64,000 nt of DNA. Source: Chitinophagaceae bacterium. Lineage in GTDB: Bacteria > Bacteroidota > Bacteroidia > Chitinophagales > Chitinophagaceae. Positions 696 through 51,130 of the stretch are shown in pieces. Under the pieces are notes generated by a model. That model saw nothing but the letters and a program-made list of their open reading frames with translations, had not been told where the DNA came from and did not search any database. The position numbers and the translations under genes were made by a program. Position 1 is the first letter of the stretch, and each line of letters begins with the position of its first letter. The stretch is taken from positions 1 through 64,000 of the forward strand of contig JAIEMP010000003.1 of NCBI GenBank assembly GCA_019752045.1, in the 5' to 3' direction.

Positions 696-1885
696 TAATA
701 GAGATATTCTGTTTTATACGGATAGCGAACCTGATAGAGTCGTTTTACATTCTCTAATATTCTTGCACGGAGTTCGGGGATGTTTCTTTTTTCTGTTGCA
801 GATATAAACACACAGTTACCGCCGGTTTCATTTTCCCAGCGTTCTTTCAATTCCTGCAGAATGTTTGCTTTTACATCATCTTCGAGCCATTCATCAAAGT
901 TCTTTTCTTCGTACAGGTCCATTTTATTGAAGATGGTAATCACGGGTTTATCGTAACACTTTAAGTCCTGCAGTGTTTTGTTTACCACATTGATCTGGTC
1001 TTCGTATTGGAGGTGTGATATATCAACTACATGCAGTAATACATCACTCTCTCTTACTTCATCCAATGTACTTTTAAAACTTTCTACCAGATGATGTGGA
1101 AGTTTGCGGATGAAACCAACGGTATCACTTAAGAGGAAGGGCATGTTTTCAAACACAACCTTACTGGTTGTTGTATCAAGTGTTGCAAACAATTTATTTT
1201 CTGCAAACACTTCCCGTTTGCTGAGGATATTCATAAGTGTGCTCTTGCCCACGTTGGTATAACCAACCAATGCCACACGGATAAACTCACCACGATCTTT
1301 GCGTTGTGTGAAAGCCTGTTTGTCAATTTCAGCTAAACGTTTGCGTAACAAAGAGATCTTATCTTTTACAATACGACGATCGGTTTCAATCTCCGTTTCA
1401 CCCGGGCCTCTTGTACCAACACCACCACCTTGCCGTTCAAGATGTTTCCACATCCCTTTCAACCGTGGTAAGATGTATTGATATTGTGCAAGCTCCACCT
1501 GTGTTTTAGCCTGTGCTGTTTTTGCACGCCGTGCAAAAATGTCGAGGATCAGATCACTGCGATCGATGGTATAGATCTCCAGTTCTTTTTCAATGTTCAT
1601 GATCTGTGCGCCGGTAAGCTCATCATCAAAAATGATGAGGGAGATATCCCGTTCCTGCACATATTTTTTTATTTCCTGCAGTTTTCCTTTGCCCACAAAT
1701 GTTTTACTATCGGGGTGTGCTAATTTTTGTAAGAACCGTTTCATGGTAACAGCGCCTGCTGTTTCTGCAAGAAAGGCCAGCTCATCCAGATATTCCTGTA
1801 CCTGTAATTCAGTTTGTCCTTTTTGCACCACACCAACGATGATGGCTTTCTCTTCCTGTTGTATTTCCTGTTTACGATCAATCAC
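695..1885 (-). CDS. hflX: GTPase HflX
   Basis: HflX is a ribosome-binding GTPase that splits stalled or heat-damaged 70S ribosomes. The 396-residue protein has the N-terminal HflX domain with the signature TRGPGETEIETDRR (about residues 158-171). The G domain shows the P-loop GYTNVGKS (208-215), TLDTTT, DTVGF (254-258) and NKMD (320-323). The length is normal for the family. It starts at ATG 1885 and is the first gene of a two-gene unit with the Rieske protein, whose start overlaps its stop by one base. Assignment rests on several family-specific motifs. Confidence 0.96.
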   Translation of the reverse strand: MIDRKQEIQQEEKAIIVGVVQKGQTELQVQEYLDELAFLAETAGAVTMKRFLQKLAHPDSKTFVGKGKLQEIKKYVQERDISLIIFDDELTGAQIMNIEKELEIYTIDRSDLILDIFARRAKTAQAKTQVELAQYQYILPRLKGMWKHLERQGGGVGTRGPGETEIETDRRIVKDKISLLRKRLAEIDKQAFTQRKDRGEFIRVALVGYTNVGKSTLMNILSKREVFAENKLFATLDTTTSKVVFENMPFLLSDTVGFIRKLPHHLVESFKSTLDEVRESDVLLHVVDISHLQYEDQINVVNKTLQDLKCYDKPVITIFNKMDLYEEKNFDEWLEDDVKANILQELKERWENETGGNCVFISATEKRNIPELRARILENVKRLYQVRYPYKTEYLY

Positions 1886-48713: not shown

Positions 48714-48747
48714 TGACCCATCCCTTACAGTTAGTCTTCATGTTTAA

Positions 48748-48934
48748 CAACCCTACACCCCCTCCAGGGAGGGATAACCGGTTCGTATTGTAAAAAGCAC
48801 AATTCTATTCTTCTGTTGATATATTGATGGAAGTAAATTGTGGCAATGAAGTTGATAATCCCTCCCGGGAGGGGTTTGGGGTGGGTTAATCAATTCTTCG
48901 CCTTGGTCGGTGCCCCTACCGACTACAGCAAGAA
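48748..48934. repeat. Intergenic region with inverted dispersed repeats
   Basis: The 356-bp gap after adk holds a pair of inverted GC-rich repeats, AACCCTACACCCCCTCCAGG and onward (48748-48779) and its relative in the other orientation (48854-48890). A copy of the GGTCGGTG...ACCGACT hairpin (48905-48934) follows. Similar repeats occur at 34259, 57986 and 31937. No gene is seen. These are typical dispersed repeats of this phylum. Confidence 0.55.
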
Positions 48935-49017: not shown

Positions 49018-49461
49018 ATGAAATACATATTACTCTGCCTGATTTTCTTTTCTGTTACAGCAGCCTTTGCACAAAAAACAAAAGAAGAATCTGCCACTGA
49101 AAAATTTGTGTTGAAGCTGCATGAAACAAAGTTTCGCTGGATGGTGCAGAAAAAATTAGACTCACTCAACAGCATACTCGATGAGCGCATACAGTATGTT
49201 CACTCAAACGGATGGGTACAGAATAAAAAAGAAGTCACGGAAGATTTACAAAGCGGCAAGCTGATAATGAACAGCGTACAGGTAACGGAAGCAACCGCAA
49301 GAGTATACAAAGGTTTTGTAATTGTTAATGGTAAAGGCAATTTCAATGTAGTTGTAAACGGTGTTGCTGTTGAACTTCAGTTATTATATACCGAAGTGTA
49401 TGCCAAACGACAGAACGGATGGTTGTTAGTAAGCAGGCATGCAACTAAATTAATTCCATAA
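49018..49461 (+). CDS. Secreted NTF2-like (DUF4440-type) protein
   Basis: A 147-residue protein with a signal peptide (MKYILLCLIFFSVTAAFAQ). The rest fits an NTF2-like cone fold: RWMVQKKLDSLNSILDERIQYVHSNGWVQNKKEVTEDLQSGKL, then VRVYKGFVIVNGKG-type strands and the end RQNGWLLVSRHATKLIP. DUF4440 members are varied and include steroid isomerase-like and unknown proteins. No catalytic residues can be assigned. Convergent with the arsenic operon. Confidence 0.82.
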   Translation: MKYILLCLIFFSVTAAFAQKTKEESATEKFVLKLHETKFRWMVQKKLDSLNSILDERIQYVHSNGWVQNKKEVTEDLQSGKLIMNSVQVTEATARVYKGFVIVNGKGNFNVVVNGVAVELQLLYTEVYAKRQNGWLLVSRHATKLIP

Positions 49462-49502
49462 GGCTTGGCTATTTTAAATGGCCAGACAGGTTAAGAGAAA
49501 AA

Positions 49503-49537
49503 GAGAGAGTCCCGCTACAGCGGGACTCTCTCTTTTT
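49503..49537. terminator. Bidirectional terminator between the NTF2-like gene and the ars operon
   Basis: GAGAGAGTCCCGC pairs with GCGGGACTCTCTC across TACA, with TTTTT to the right and AAAAAG to the left. It serves the 49018 gene on the plus strand and the 27-residue gene on the minus strand, whose stop codon lies at 49536-49538. Confidence 0.9.
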
Positions 49538-49619
49538 AACAACATCCCATGTTGGTGATGCCGCCGCAACAATCATTGTTGTCTGCACAACATCCGGGAT
49601 CTTTTTGATTTGTGTTCAT
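49536..49619 (-). CDS. 27-residue Cys-Cys micropeptide of the arsenic operon
   Basis: ATG 49619 to TAA 49536 encodes 27 residues with three adjacent Cys pairs (CC at 10-11, 17-18 and 26-27), two of them after Asp/Gly-rich segments (DPGCC, NDCCGG, MGCC). It lies 30 bp downstream of arsM on the same strand and the shared terminator follows. Two Cys pairs of the same type end ArsR and ArsM, so it may bind arsenite or another soft metal. Similar tiny peptides are easy to miss in annotation. It is not one of the families I can name. Confidence 0.55.
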   Translation of the reverse strand: MNTNQKDPGCCADNNDCCGGITNMGCC

Positions 49620-49649
49620 GATGCTAAGGTTTATAAATGAAAAAAAGAA

Positions 49650-50486
49650 TTAACAACAACCGCTGCCCGGTGCACAGGCTGCTGGTTTTTGTGCAAATAC
49701 GGTGATAGAAAAGATGCCGGTGTTTCCTTGTTTGAAATCCGCAAGCTCCTGCTCGTTTAAATAATTTTTCAGAATATCATCGGGAATAACAATTGCTTTT
49801 TCTTTTTGGATGGTGATCTGTTGAAACCCGTTTTGCTGAATCAGTTCGAGATATACTTCTTTCTGAATGGCACCTGCAACACAACCTGCATACATCTCTG
49901 CATCTTTCCGCAATGCATCAGGAAGATTGCCAACCAACACCACATCTGAAATACTGAAATGACCACCCGCCTTCAACACACGAAAAATATCTTTGAACAC
50001 GCCATCTTTATTCGGTACTAAATTCAACACACAATTACTTACCACCACATCTGCAGTATTTGCAGTAACAGGCATATGTTCAATATCGCCTTGGCGAAAC
50101 TCTACATTGTTCAATCCTCTTTTTTCTGCATTGGTTCTTGCTTTATCAATCATTGCCGGCGTAAAATCAATACCAATCACTTTACCTGTTGGTCCGGTTT
50201 CAGCAACTGCAATAAAACAATCGTTGCCTGCACCGCTACCCAGATCAATCACCGTATCACCCGGACGGATTTTTGCAAACTGTGTTGGTAAGCCGCAACC
50301 TAATCCCAAATCGGCATCAGGATTGTAGCCTTTCAGATTTGTATAATCATCACTCATGATATTATACACTTCAGTTGAGCAGCCACCTGCGCCACAGCAC
50401 GACGATTGATTGGTTTCTTTATCCTGTAAAGCGATTTCGCTGTACTTCTGTTTTACAATTTCTTTGAGTTGTGTTTCTGTTGTCAT
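49650..50486 (-). CDS. arsM: Arsenite S-adenosylmethionine methyltransferase ArsM
   Basis: A 278-residue ArsM that methylates As(III). The SAM motif is VIDLGSGAGNDCF (residues 79-91), followed by GIDFTPAMIDKARTNAEKRGL and VISNCVLNLVPNK-type VVVSNCVLNLV. ArsM cysteines are present at the N terminus (SSCCGAGGC, C30, C31, C36), C64 in GLGCGLP, the YAGCVAGAI cysteine and a C-terminal CAPGSGCC. It follows arsR by 33 bp. No ArsB, Acr3 or ArsC lies in the window, so detoxification here relies on methylation unless those genes are elsewhere. Confidence 0.94.
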   Translation of the reverse strand: MTTETQLKEIVKQKYSEIALQDKETNQSSCCGAGGCSTEVYNIMSDDYTNLKGYNPDADLGLGCGLPTQFAKIRPGDTVIDLGSGAGNDCFIAVAETGPTGKVIGIDFTPAMIDKARTNAEKRGLNNVEFRQGDIEHMPVTANTADVVVSNCVLNLVPNKDGVFKDIFRVLKAGGHFSISDVVLVGNLPDALRKDAEMYAGCVAGAIQKEVYLELIQQNGFQQITIQKEKAIVIPDDILKNYLNEQELADFKQGNTGIFSITVFAQKPAACAPGSGCC

Positions 50487-50519
50487 GATATTATTTTAAA
50501 AATGAAAAGTTGTTATTCC

Positions 50520-50852
50520 TTAACAGCATTTAGCATTCGCCTCTTTTAGTTTTTCAAAAAGTGAATGAAATTCAGCATTGAATTTTTCAAAAGCTTTCCA
50601 GTTGATGCAATAGCAACTTCGTGGTCCATCGGTTTCGCCATCAATGAGTCCTGCATTCTTTAATTCTTTCAGGTGCTGGCTAACGGTACTTTGTGCAAGT
50701 GGTAATATCTCAACAATCTCACCACAAATACATTGATTGCGTTTTGCCAATACGCCCAGGATGGCAATGCGTGCAGGATGACTGATGGCTTTTGCAAACG
50801 CTGCAAGGTGTTGTTCTTTTGTACTGAATTCTTCTTTTTTGTGGATGGCCAT
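50520..50852 (-). CDS. arsR: ArsR-family metalloregulator
   Basis: A 110-residue winged-helix repressor. Helix-turn-helix LPLAQSTVSQHLKELKNAGLI (about 50-70), preceded by QCICGEIVEIL with Cys41 and Cys43 on the first sensing helix and by SHPARIAILGVL. Cys80, Cys82 and the C-terminal Cys109 and Cys110 give further thiol pairs. It is probably derepressed by As(III) or Sb(III). It leads the operon arsR-arsM-27-residue peptide. The promoter and inverted-repeat operators lie upstream. Confidence 0.94.
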   Translation of the reverse strand: MAIHKKEEFSTKEQHLAAFAKAISHPARIAILGVLAKRNQCICGEIVEILPLAQSTVSQHLKELKNAGLIDGETDGPRSCYCINWKAFEKFNAEFHSLFEKLKEANAKCC

Positions 50853-50861
50853 TTTATTAAT

Positions 50862-50959
50862 CGTTTTTATACGATGAATATGTTCAATTAAAAAGACGAT
50901 TTGTTCGTCTTATTTATTTTATATCGCAAATATACGATTAACGATTTCAGATTTCCAAA
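50862..50959 (-). promoter_or_regulatory. arsR promoter with inverted-repeat operators
   Basis: On the minus strand TTTG (CAAA at 50956-50959), 21 bp and TATATTTG (CAAATATA at 50927-50934) form a Bacteroidota promoter. Inverted repeats flank it: AAGACGA/TCGTCTT within 50893-50911 downstream, and ATCG...CGAT arms around 50924-50937 at the -7 box. A further ATCGT...ACGAT pair lies near 50858-50874. These are candidate ArsR sites; binding is inferred. Confidence 0.6.
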
Positions 50960-50991
50960 CAAAAAGCCGGAAAAAATTTTTCCGGCTTTTG
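50960..50991 (-). terminator. Terminator between AIM24 gene and arsR
   Basis: AAAAGCCGGAAAAAA and TTTTTCCGGCTTTT form a 14-bp A/T-flanked GCCGG stem. It lies 175 bp after the 51167 stop, past the repeat element, and just upstream of the arsR promoter. It could end transcription that leaks from the AIM24 gene. Confidence 0.75.
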
Positions 50992-50995
50992 TTTT

Positions 50996-51130
50996 CGTCA
51001 TGTCGACGAAGGAGACATCTCTATATAATGAGCGTGATTTATGGCTATCGTACACACTATTATTATACTTCAAAATTCTTTAGAGATGCCTCGTGCCTCC
51101 CGCCAAATGCGGGACAGGTCGGCATGACGG
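50996..51130. mobile_element. MITE-like inverted-repeat element
   Basis: The left end CGTCATGTCGACGAAGGAGA continues to CATCTCT. The right end, read in reverse, is CCGTCATGCCGACC...GAGGCATCTCT, interrupted by an extra hairpin CCCGC-CAAAT-GCGGG. This CGTCATnyCGAC...ATCTC pattern is common in Bacteroidota as a dispersed non-coding repeat. The element is about 135 bp with a short internal spacer, carries no gene and sits between the terminator and the AIM24 stop. Confidence 0.6.

Follow-up and report, generated by a model that had tools for sequence, protein, structure and literature searches.

A candidate cysteine-pair micropeptide gene in the ars operons of Lacibacter and related Chitinophagaceae

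The window, by which we mean the whole 64,000 nt stretch of DNA analysed, comes from a 4.16 Mb genome which we infer to belong to the genus Lacibacter, since in two members of its genus (G083 and G195) the arsM positions match those in contigs of L. cauensis and L. luteus. It carries a short arsenic resistance (ars) operon on its minus strand, listed here in the direction of transcription.

50857-50941, minus strand: putative ars promoter/operator region, TATATTTG inside ATCGTATATTTGCGATATA, with an imperfect inverted repeat of 19 nt whose arms are separated by 47 nt
50520-50852, minus strand: arsR, ArsR/SmtB metalloregulator of 110 aa with the C-terminus NAKCC (NCBIfam NF033788, 68.2 bits against a cut-off of 55; Pfam HTH_5)
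49650-50486, minus strand: arsM, arsenite methyltransferase of 278 aa (NCBIfam NF008823, 368.8 bits against a cut-off of 263)
49620-49635, minus strand: A/T-rich start context TATAAACCTTAGCATC ahead of the mu ATG, near-identical across eight Lacibacter loci
49536-49619, minus strand: mu (the name used here for the Cys-pair micropeptide gene), 27 codons, MNTNQKDPGCCADNNDCCGGITNMGCC, with relatives in 22 genomes
49500-49535, minus strand: terminator-like hairpin, a 16-bp stem with a 4-nt loop, beginning right after the mu stop codon

The intergenic gaps are 33 nt (arsR-arsM) and 30 nt (arsM-mu). ArsR has its cysteines at C41/C43, C80/C82 and C109/C110, ArsM carries SSCCGAGGC close to its N-terminus and ends in AACAPGSGCC, that is, a single Cys plus one CC pair (the end CCAPGSGCC is found in six of the eight Lacibacter genomes with mu), and the mu peptide has CC pairs at residues 10-11, 17-18 and 26-27. 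The coordinates, the 33 and 30 nt spacings and the Cys positions that the first-pass annotation had given for ArsR, ArsM and the micropeptide all proved correct when the sequence was rechecked. In an alignment, C64, C152 and C202 of ArsM fall on Cys of the solved ArsM 5evj, which are known to bind arsenite. One study gives two or three arsenite-binding Cys in known ArsM proteins (PMC8649762). The start context TATAAACCTTAGCATC has a putative role in the translation start of mu, and in most other genera the corresponding letters resemble ATAAA(T/A)AGTA(T/A)AGCC.

The hairpin had been called a shared terminator of the operon. In favour of that label, the stem lies directly past the mu stop, the 60 nt following the stop have a folding energy of -30.2 kcal/mol, and the label fits a next gene which is convergent (a DUF4440 protein, 49018-49461, plus strand). 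On the other side, a simple terminator scan of 49300-51100 listed four sites and the mu hairpin was not among them; our guess is that the scan misses it since the stem consumes its own T-run. Further along, two 35-nt inverted repeats (48741-48775 and 48858-48892) are separated by 82 nt; they show 74% complementarity, have CCCTCC..GGGAGGG cores and resemble an intergenic repeat element.

In the region upstream of arsR, all eight Lacibacter loci share ATCGTATATTTGCGATATA without a change, and TATATTTG within it corresponds to a TAnnTTTG box, a promoter element. We assign 50857-50941 a putative promoter and operator role on this basis, and the inverted repeat around TATATTTG perhaps represents ArsR operators. 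A further terminator-like stem (50957-50995), near-constant across the eight Lacibacter loci, lies upstream of this promoter.

Relatives of mu are present in 22 genomes of 11 genera, all within the window's family: eight of the 14 Lacibacter genomes and 14 others. Every one begins with ATG (22/22), the peptides are 16-32 residues long, and all 19 distinct peptides terminate in CC. The eight Lacibacter peptides start MNTNQ and finish with CC and the stop, their lengths (27, 27, 27, 25, 25, 16, 16 and 16 residues) differ by whole codons, and in these frame-bearing genomes (8/14 of the genus) the arsM-mu spacer is 29 or 30 nt. Across codons 1-11, the final two Cys and the stop, the eight genes vary at five sites, every one a third codon position, and one of these alters a residue (K6N). 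Codons 12-15, compared in the five longer Lacibacter genes, vary at all three codon positions, which indicates that the middle of mu is less constrained. Between the mu genes of G167 and G229 there are two differences, both silent.

At 222 non-redundant arsM loci we searched the 200 nt downstream of arsM for ATG starts of frames 14-40 codons long that contain two or more CC pairs. Fifteen loci had such a frame on the sense strand (14 mu relatives and one chance frame, at L234), as against none of 222 on the antisense strand and 0.14 per dinucleotide-shuffled set (50 sets). Mu is thus very likely a real, translated gene under selection, and its relatives retain the paired cysteines while the rest of the peptide drifts. 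The first-pass annotation had read the frame as a thiol micropeptide belonging to the ars operon and had named lack of conservation of the frame or its Cys pairs in relatives as grounds against it; the relatives in 22 genomes support the reading, with both frame and pairs conserved.

The count of 22 comprises 20 genomes from a family profile search plus two (G199 and G202) from a genus search. A pattern of the first 11 residues, allowing up to three mismatches, matched seven of 394 family genomes (reversed control 0). The seventh of these, G038, belongs to a different genus and its ArsM shares 61-63% identity, yet MNTNQKDPGCCGGDSGCCGITDFGCC is present 31 nt downstream of its arsM. A 12-row profile (E ≤ 0.05) matched 22 of the same 394 genomes, of which 20 were retained, six in Lacibacter; G085 and G390 were rejected, having neither ars-like neighbours nor a two-CC frame. 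In the genus search, L155-L157 (E 0.006-0.010) lie inside or opposite other frames and went uncounted, as did matches with E above 0.1. Of the six Lacibacter genomes without mu, four (G197, G198, G204 and G205) have an arsM 68-78% identical, and in G200 and G201 no arsM was found. The region downstream of arsM was inspected at no fewer than 116 further loci, two of them without DNA there and 25 read in three frames; this set leaves out G033:C172, with no DNA downstream, and three loci at 32-33% identity (G179, G141 and G190). Downstream of arsM, apparently decaying mu copies, which we did not count, were seen in G086 (L257, with a TTG start and an in-frame stop), G074 (L247, with no ATG) and G091 (L251, with one Cys).

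A 19-row profile run on a sample of 395 phylum genomes matched 16, in which the true mu genes were those of G000 (the window's genome), G004 and G034, all in the window's family, and none was found outside it. This search missed G021, a known mu carrier within the sample, so weak members get lost and our counts of mu are lower bounds. The other matches were set aside: L299, L302, L305 and L307 are tails of DUF6428-type proteins, L306 is the N-terminus of an ArsM, L300 is the tail of a zinc-ribbon protein, L311 (a second match in G000) is not a mu-type peptide, and L298, L301, L303, L304 and L308-L310 match none of six ars reference proteins. Viral contigs gave no match to the exact pattern, plasmids gave five records with similarity to arsM only, and no Rfam score came close to the gathering threshold. 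Pfam had no match for the 17 of 19 mu peptides long enough to scan, NCBIfam had none for the window's peptide, and the best PDB match, granulin (E 0.004), a eukaryotic Cys-rich protein, we judged to reflect composition only. A peptide like mu was absent from titles and abstract openings among the literature matches listed, chiefly open papers. Going by Pfam, NCBIfam, PDB sequences and the open literature, and as far as these show, mu is not described.

The position of mu in its operons is variable. It lies downstream of arsM in 18 of the 22 loci and upstream in two (G158 and G120), and in the remaining two no arsM is adjacent: G004 has the order arsR-mu-arsN-aquaporin-arsC, with its own arsM about 194 kb away, and G329 has arsR-mu-arsC, with no arsM found in the 94% complete genome. 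The tie to arsM drawn in the first-pass annotation was therefore too narrow, and we dropped the idea of mu as a satellite of arsM only. An arsR is present in 20 of the 22 loci (the contigs of the other two, G038 and G129, end within arsM) and an ArsM or ArsC match in all 22, whilst the neighbours of mu vary between arsM, arsN, arsC, ACR3 and an aquaporin-like gene; the names arsN, arsC, ACR3 and aquaporin are presumptive, the aquaporin being judged by eye, and at L285 Pfam identifies GNAT, LMWPc and SBF. Such variable placement is as expected for an independent gene. We likewise dropped a single mu-carrying ArsM lineage, as a tree of 157 ArsM sequences (20 with mu) needs at least ten changes and has mu in two separate parts, Lacibacter and a second part (12 of 26 rows), which in this fast tree has a support of just 19. 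No mu was found with the other 137 ArsM, which makes it dispensable, and overall mu seems to be a component of the ars operon that can change place or be lost. In one Lacibacter operon (G160; L003:2354-3271, minus strand) a PAP2-superfamily protein (PF01569, E 2.9e-8) with a signal-like N-terminus sits between arsR and arsM, G202 and G203 have the same arsR-arsM distance, and the G120 ars operon (L295:546-1475, minus-strand count) holds a protein that resembles it by eye.

The spacing CC-x5-C occurs in 15 of the 19 distinct peptides, the window's included (as the first gap in 13), and is absent from both 16-residue forms, which have CC-x3-CC only, and from G034 and G027. The first gap between CC pairs is 5 in 13 peptides, 4 in two, 3 in two, and 7 and 11 in one each. 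According to a study on AfArsR, the three Cys of its As(III) site are modelled by the peptide Ac-NCCHGTRDCA-NH2, which is disordered when free and folds on As(III), with a logK of 6.35 at pH 7.5 (PMC11212059). Dicysteine ends are also common on the ars proteins of these bacteria. Two CC pairs within the final 20 residues are present in 148 of 223 ArsM (gap 3 in 81, 5 in 66 and 4 in one), and 182 of 197 ArsR end in CC. The DUF6428-type proteins of L299, L302, L305 and L307 (L302, one of the four tested, is PF20001 in Pfam) adjoin arsR in genus g108 and end CCTP(N/D)SGCC, that is, CC-x5-CC. At L300 a zinc-ribbon protein (1315-1548, plus strand; PF09723) with the tail GGCCGGNSSCCS lies between arsM and arsD, the arsM there has no CC tail, and an ArsA-like ATPase follows downstream (by eye).

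The CC-x5-C spacing that mu has in common with the AfArsR As(III) site lends some help to the suggestion, made from the window alone, that this small peptide may carry, buffer or chaperone As(III). Together with the dicysteine tails on ars proteins, this shared spacing leads us to read mu as a detached As(III) module, a free-standing As(III)-binding peptide which would buffer arsenite and pass As(III) to dicysteine-tailed partners, and we give this reading a probability of about 0.55. ArsR would repress the operon, and relief by arsenite would lead to joint production of arsR, arsM and mu. The disordered peptide would fold on As(III), its CC-x5-C(C) cysteines holding the metalloid as a tris-thiolate, which would shield the thiols of essential proteins. 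The Cys tail of ArsM or, in other genomes, those of other ars proteins could then take over the bound As(III) through thiol exchange. ArsM cannot be the sole receiver, because the mu operons of G004 and G329 contain no arsM, and the single CC pair on the window's own ArsM tail is a point against hand-over to ArsM. The same motifs might even form an exchangeable CC-x3/5-CC module of Bacteroidota arsenic defence, borne as a tail by unrelated ars proteins, namely ArsM, DUF6428 and the L300 zinc-ribbon protein (ArsR having just a bare CC end), and present by itself in the window's family as mu, which would relay As(III) between the tails; this wider proposal is tentative, and the odds are somewhat against it.

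If it has no other arsenite pump, the window's genome may depend on arsR-arsM-mu for much of its defence against arsenic: ACR3, ArsB and an L285-like ArsC were not found there. ACR3 gave no match at 1e-15 in six of the eight mu-bearing Lacibacter genomes, the window's included, but was found in all six without mu (one-sided p 0.009 for the contrast, with relatedness ignored). ArsB was found in none of the 14 Lacibacter genomes, and an L285-like ArsC in four, none of them mu-bearing. All 14 encode BshC, so bacillithiol probably serves already as a small thiol, which weakens the idea of mu as a glutathione substitute.

A simpler possibility is that mu is a metallothionein-like sink, sequestering As(III) or another soft metal without passing it on. 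Its four to six Cys in 16-32 residues would suit such a role, as would neighbours that differ between loci and so offer no fixed receiver. Roughly one site per short peptide would, however, be a costly way to store metal, and the CC gaps of 3 and 5 that mu has in common with ArsM tails suggest exchange, hence we consider a pure sink rather improbable.

Mu could instead be a leader peptide, in which ribosomes on its Cys codons govern the terminator-like hairpin and hence the downstream genes, as Cys-rich (polycysteine) leader ORFs are said to act in mycobacteria. The stem does begin 0-8 nt past the mu stop in 20 of the 22 loci, the 60 nt past mu average -19.9 kcal/mol against -7.7 kcal/mol past 207 arsM without the frame (an unmatched control), and a same-strand ars gene follows mu in all 14 loci outside Lacibacter. 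A hairpin within an ars operon of Bacillus CDB3 is described as a terminator with possible read-through (PMC4562236). In Lacibacter, however, none of the eight loci has a match to the six ars reference proteins downstream of mu on the same strand, the next gene is convergent in both loci whose frames were examined (G000 and G160), and the peptide is retained with mostly silent changes; moreover, the hairpin is missing from G269 and G120, and its letters vary between species. A leader is unlikely on this evidence, though it is possible that the hairpin is a partial terminator which reduces the genes downstream of mu, mu itself being no leader.

Vicinal dithiols might also re-reduce ArsM or ArsC, both thiol-using enzymes, in the style of a mini-thioredoxin. 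The presence of one or other in all 22 loci is in line with such a helper, but CxxC occurs in just one of the 19 peptides (G034) and CC-x5-C is the spacing of an As(III) site, so we hold it highly unlikely. We give still less weight to a partnership with CC-ending ArsR, in which mu would donate As(III) to the repressor or compete with it and so tune induction: arsR is the most constant neighbour of mu (20/22), but it is also present at 197 of 223 arsM loci, mostly without mu. A chance frame, for which a length of merely 27 codons might speak, can be dismissed for practical purposes, given 14 related frames at 222 arsM loci where antisense and shuffled sequence gave 0 and 0.14, relatives in 11 genera, and changes at third positions.

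Mu is a conserved gene family without a Pfam or NCBIfam match in a heavily studied resistance operon, concealed by its size. If it carries arsenite, 16-32 residues would be enough for a metallochaperone, and the common CC tails on the ars proteins of these bacteria would acquire a testable function; if the As(III) relay reading is true, mu would rank with the smallest carriers of a metalloid. Were mu a leader instead, it would represent an unusual form of ars control.

Of known systems, bacterial metallothioneins of the SmtA type are, like mu, short and Cys-rich; mu is shorter, has CC pairs, and lacks a family match (Pfam, 17 of 19 peptides; NCBIfam, the window's peptide). Mycobacterial polycysteine leader ORFs resemble mu in being tiny Cys-rich frames by a terminator-like hairpin, but differ in that Lacibacter mu has no ars gene found downstream to control. 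The C-terminal As(III) site of AfArsR shares CC-x5-C in a short disordered stretch with 15 of the 19 mu peptides (PMC11212059), but there the site belongs to a DNA-binding repressor whereas mu is a free peptide without a domain. ArsD, an arsenic metallochaperone (PF06953), resembles mu in its small size, its ars-operon location and its vicinal Cys pairs, C-terminal ones being named for E. coli ArsD in PMC4562236; it differs in that the 17 mu peptides scanned have no Pfam match, and the ArsD of L300 has 115 residues against 16-32 for mu. In ArsM and DUF6428 (PF20001) proteins, as in mu, the C-terminus is formed by CC-x3-CC or CC-x5-CC or has one of them close by, but in these the motif is the tail of a larger protein, whereas in mu it has a start codon of its own.
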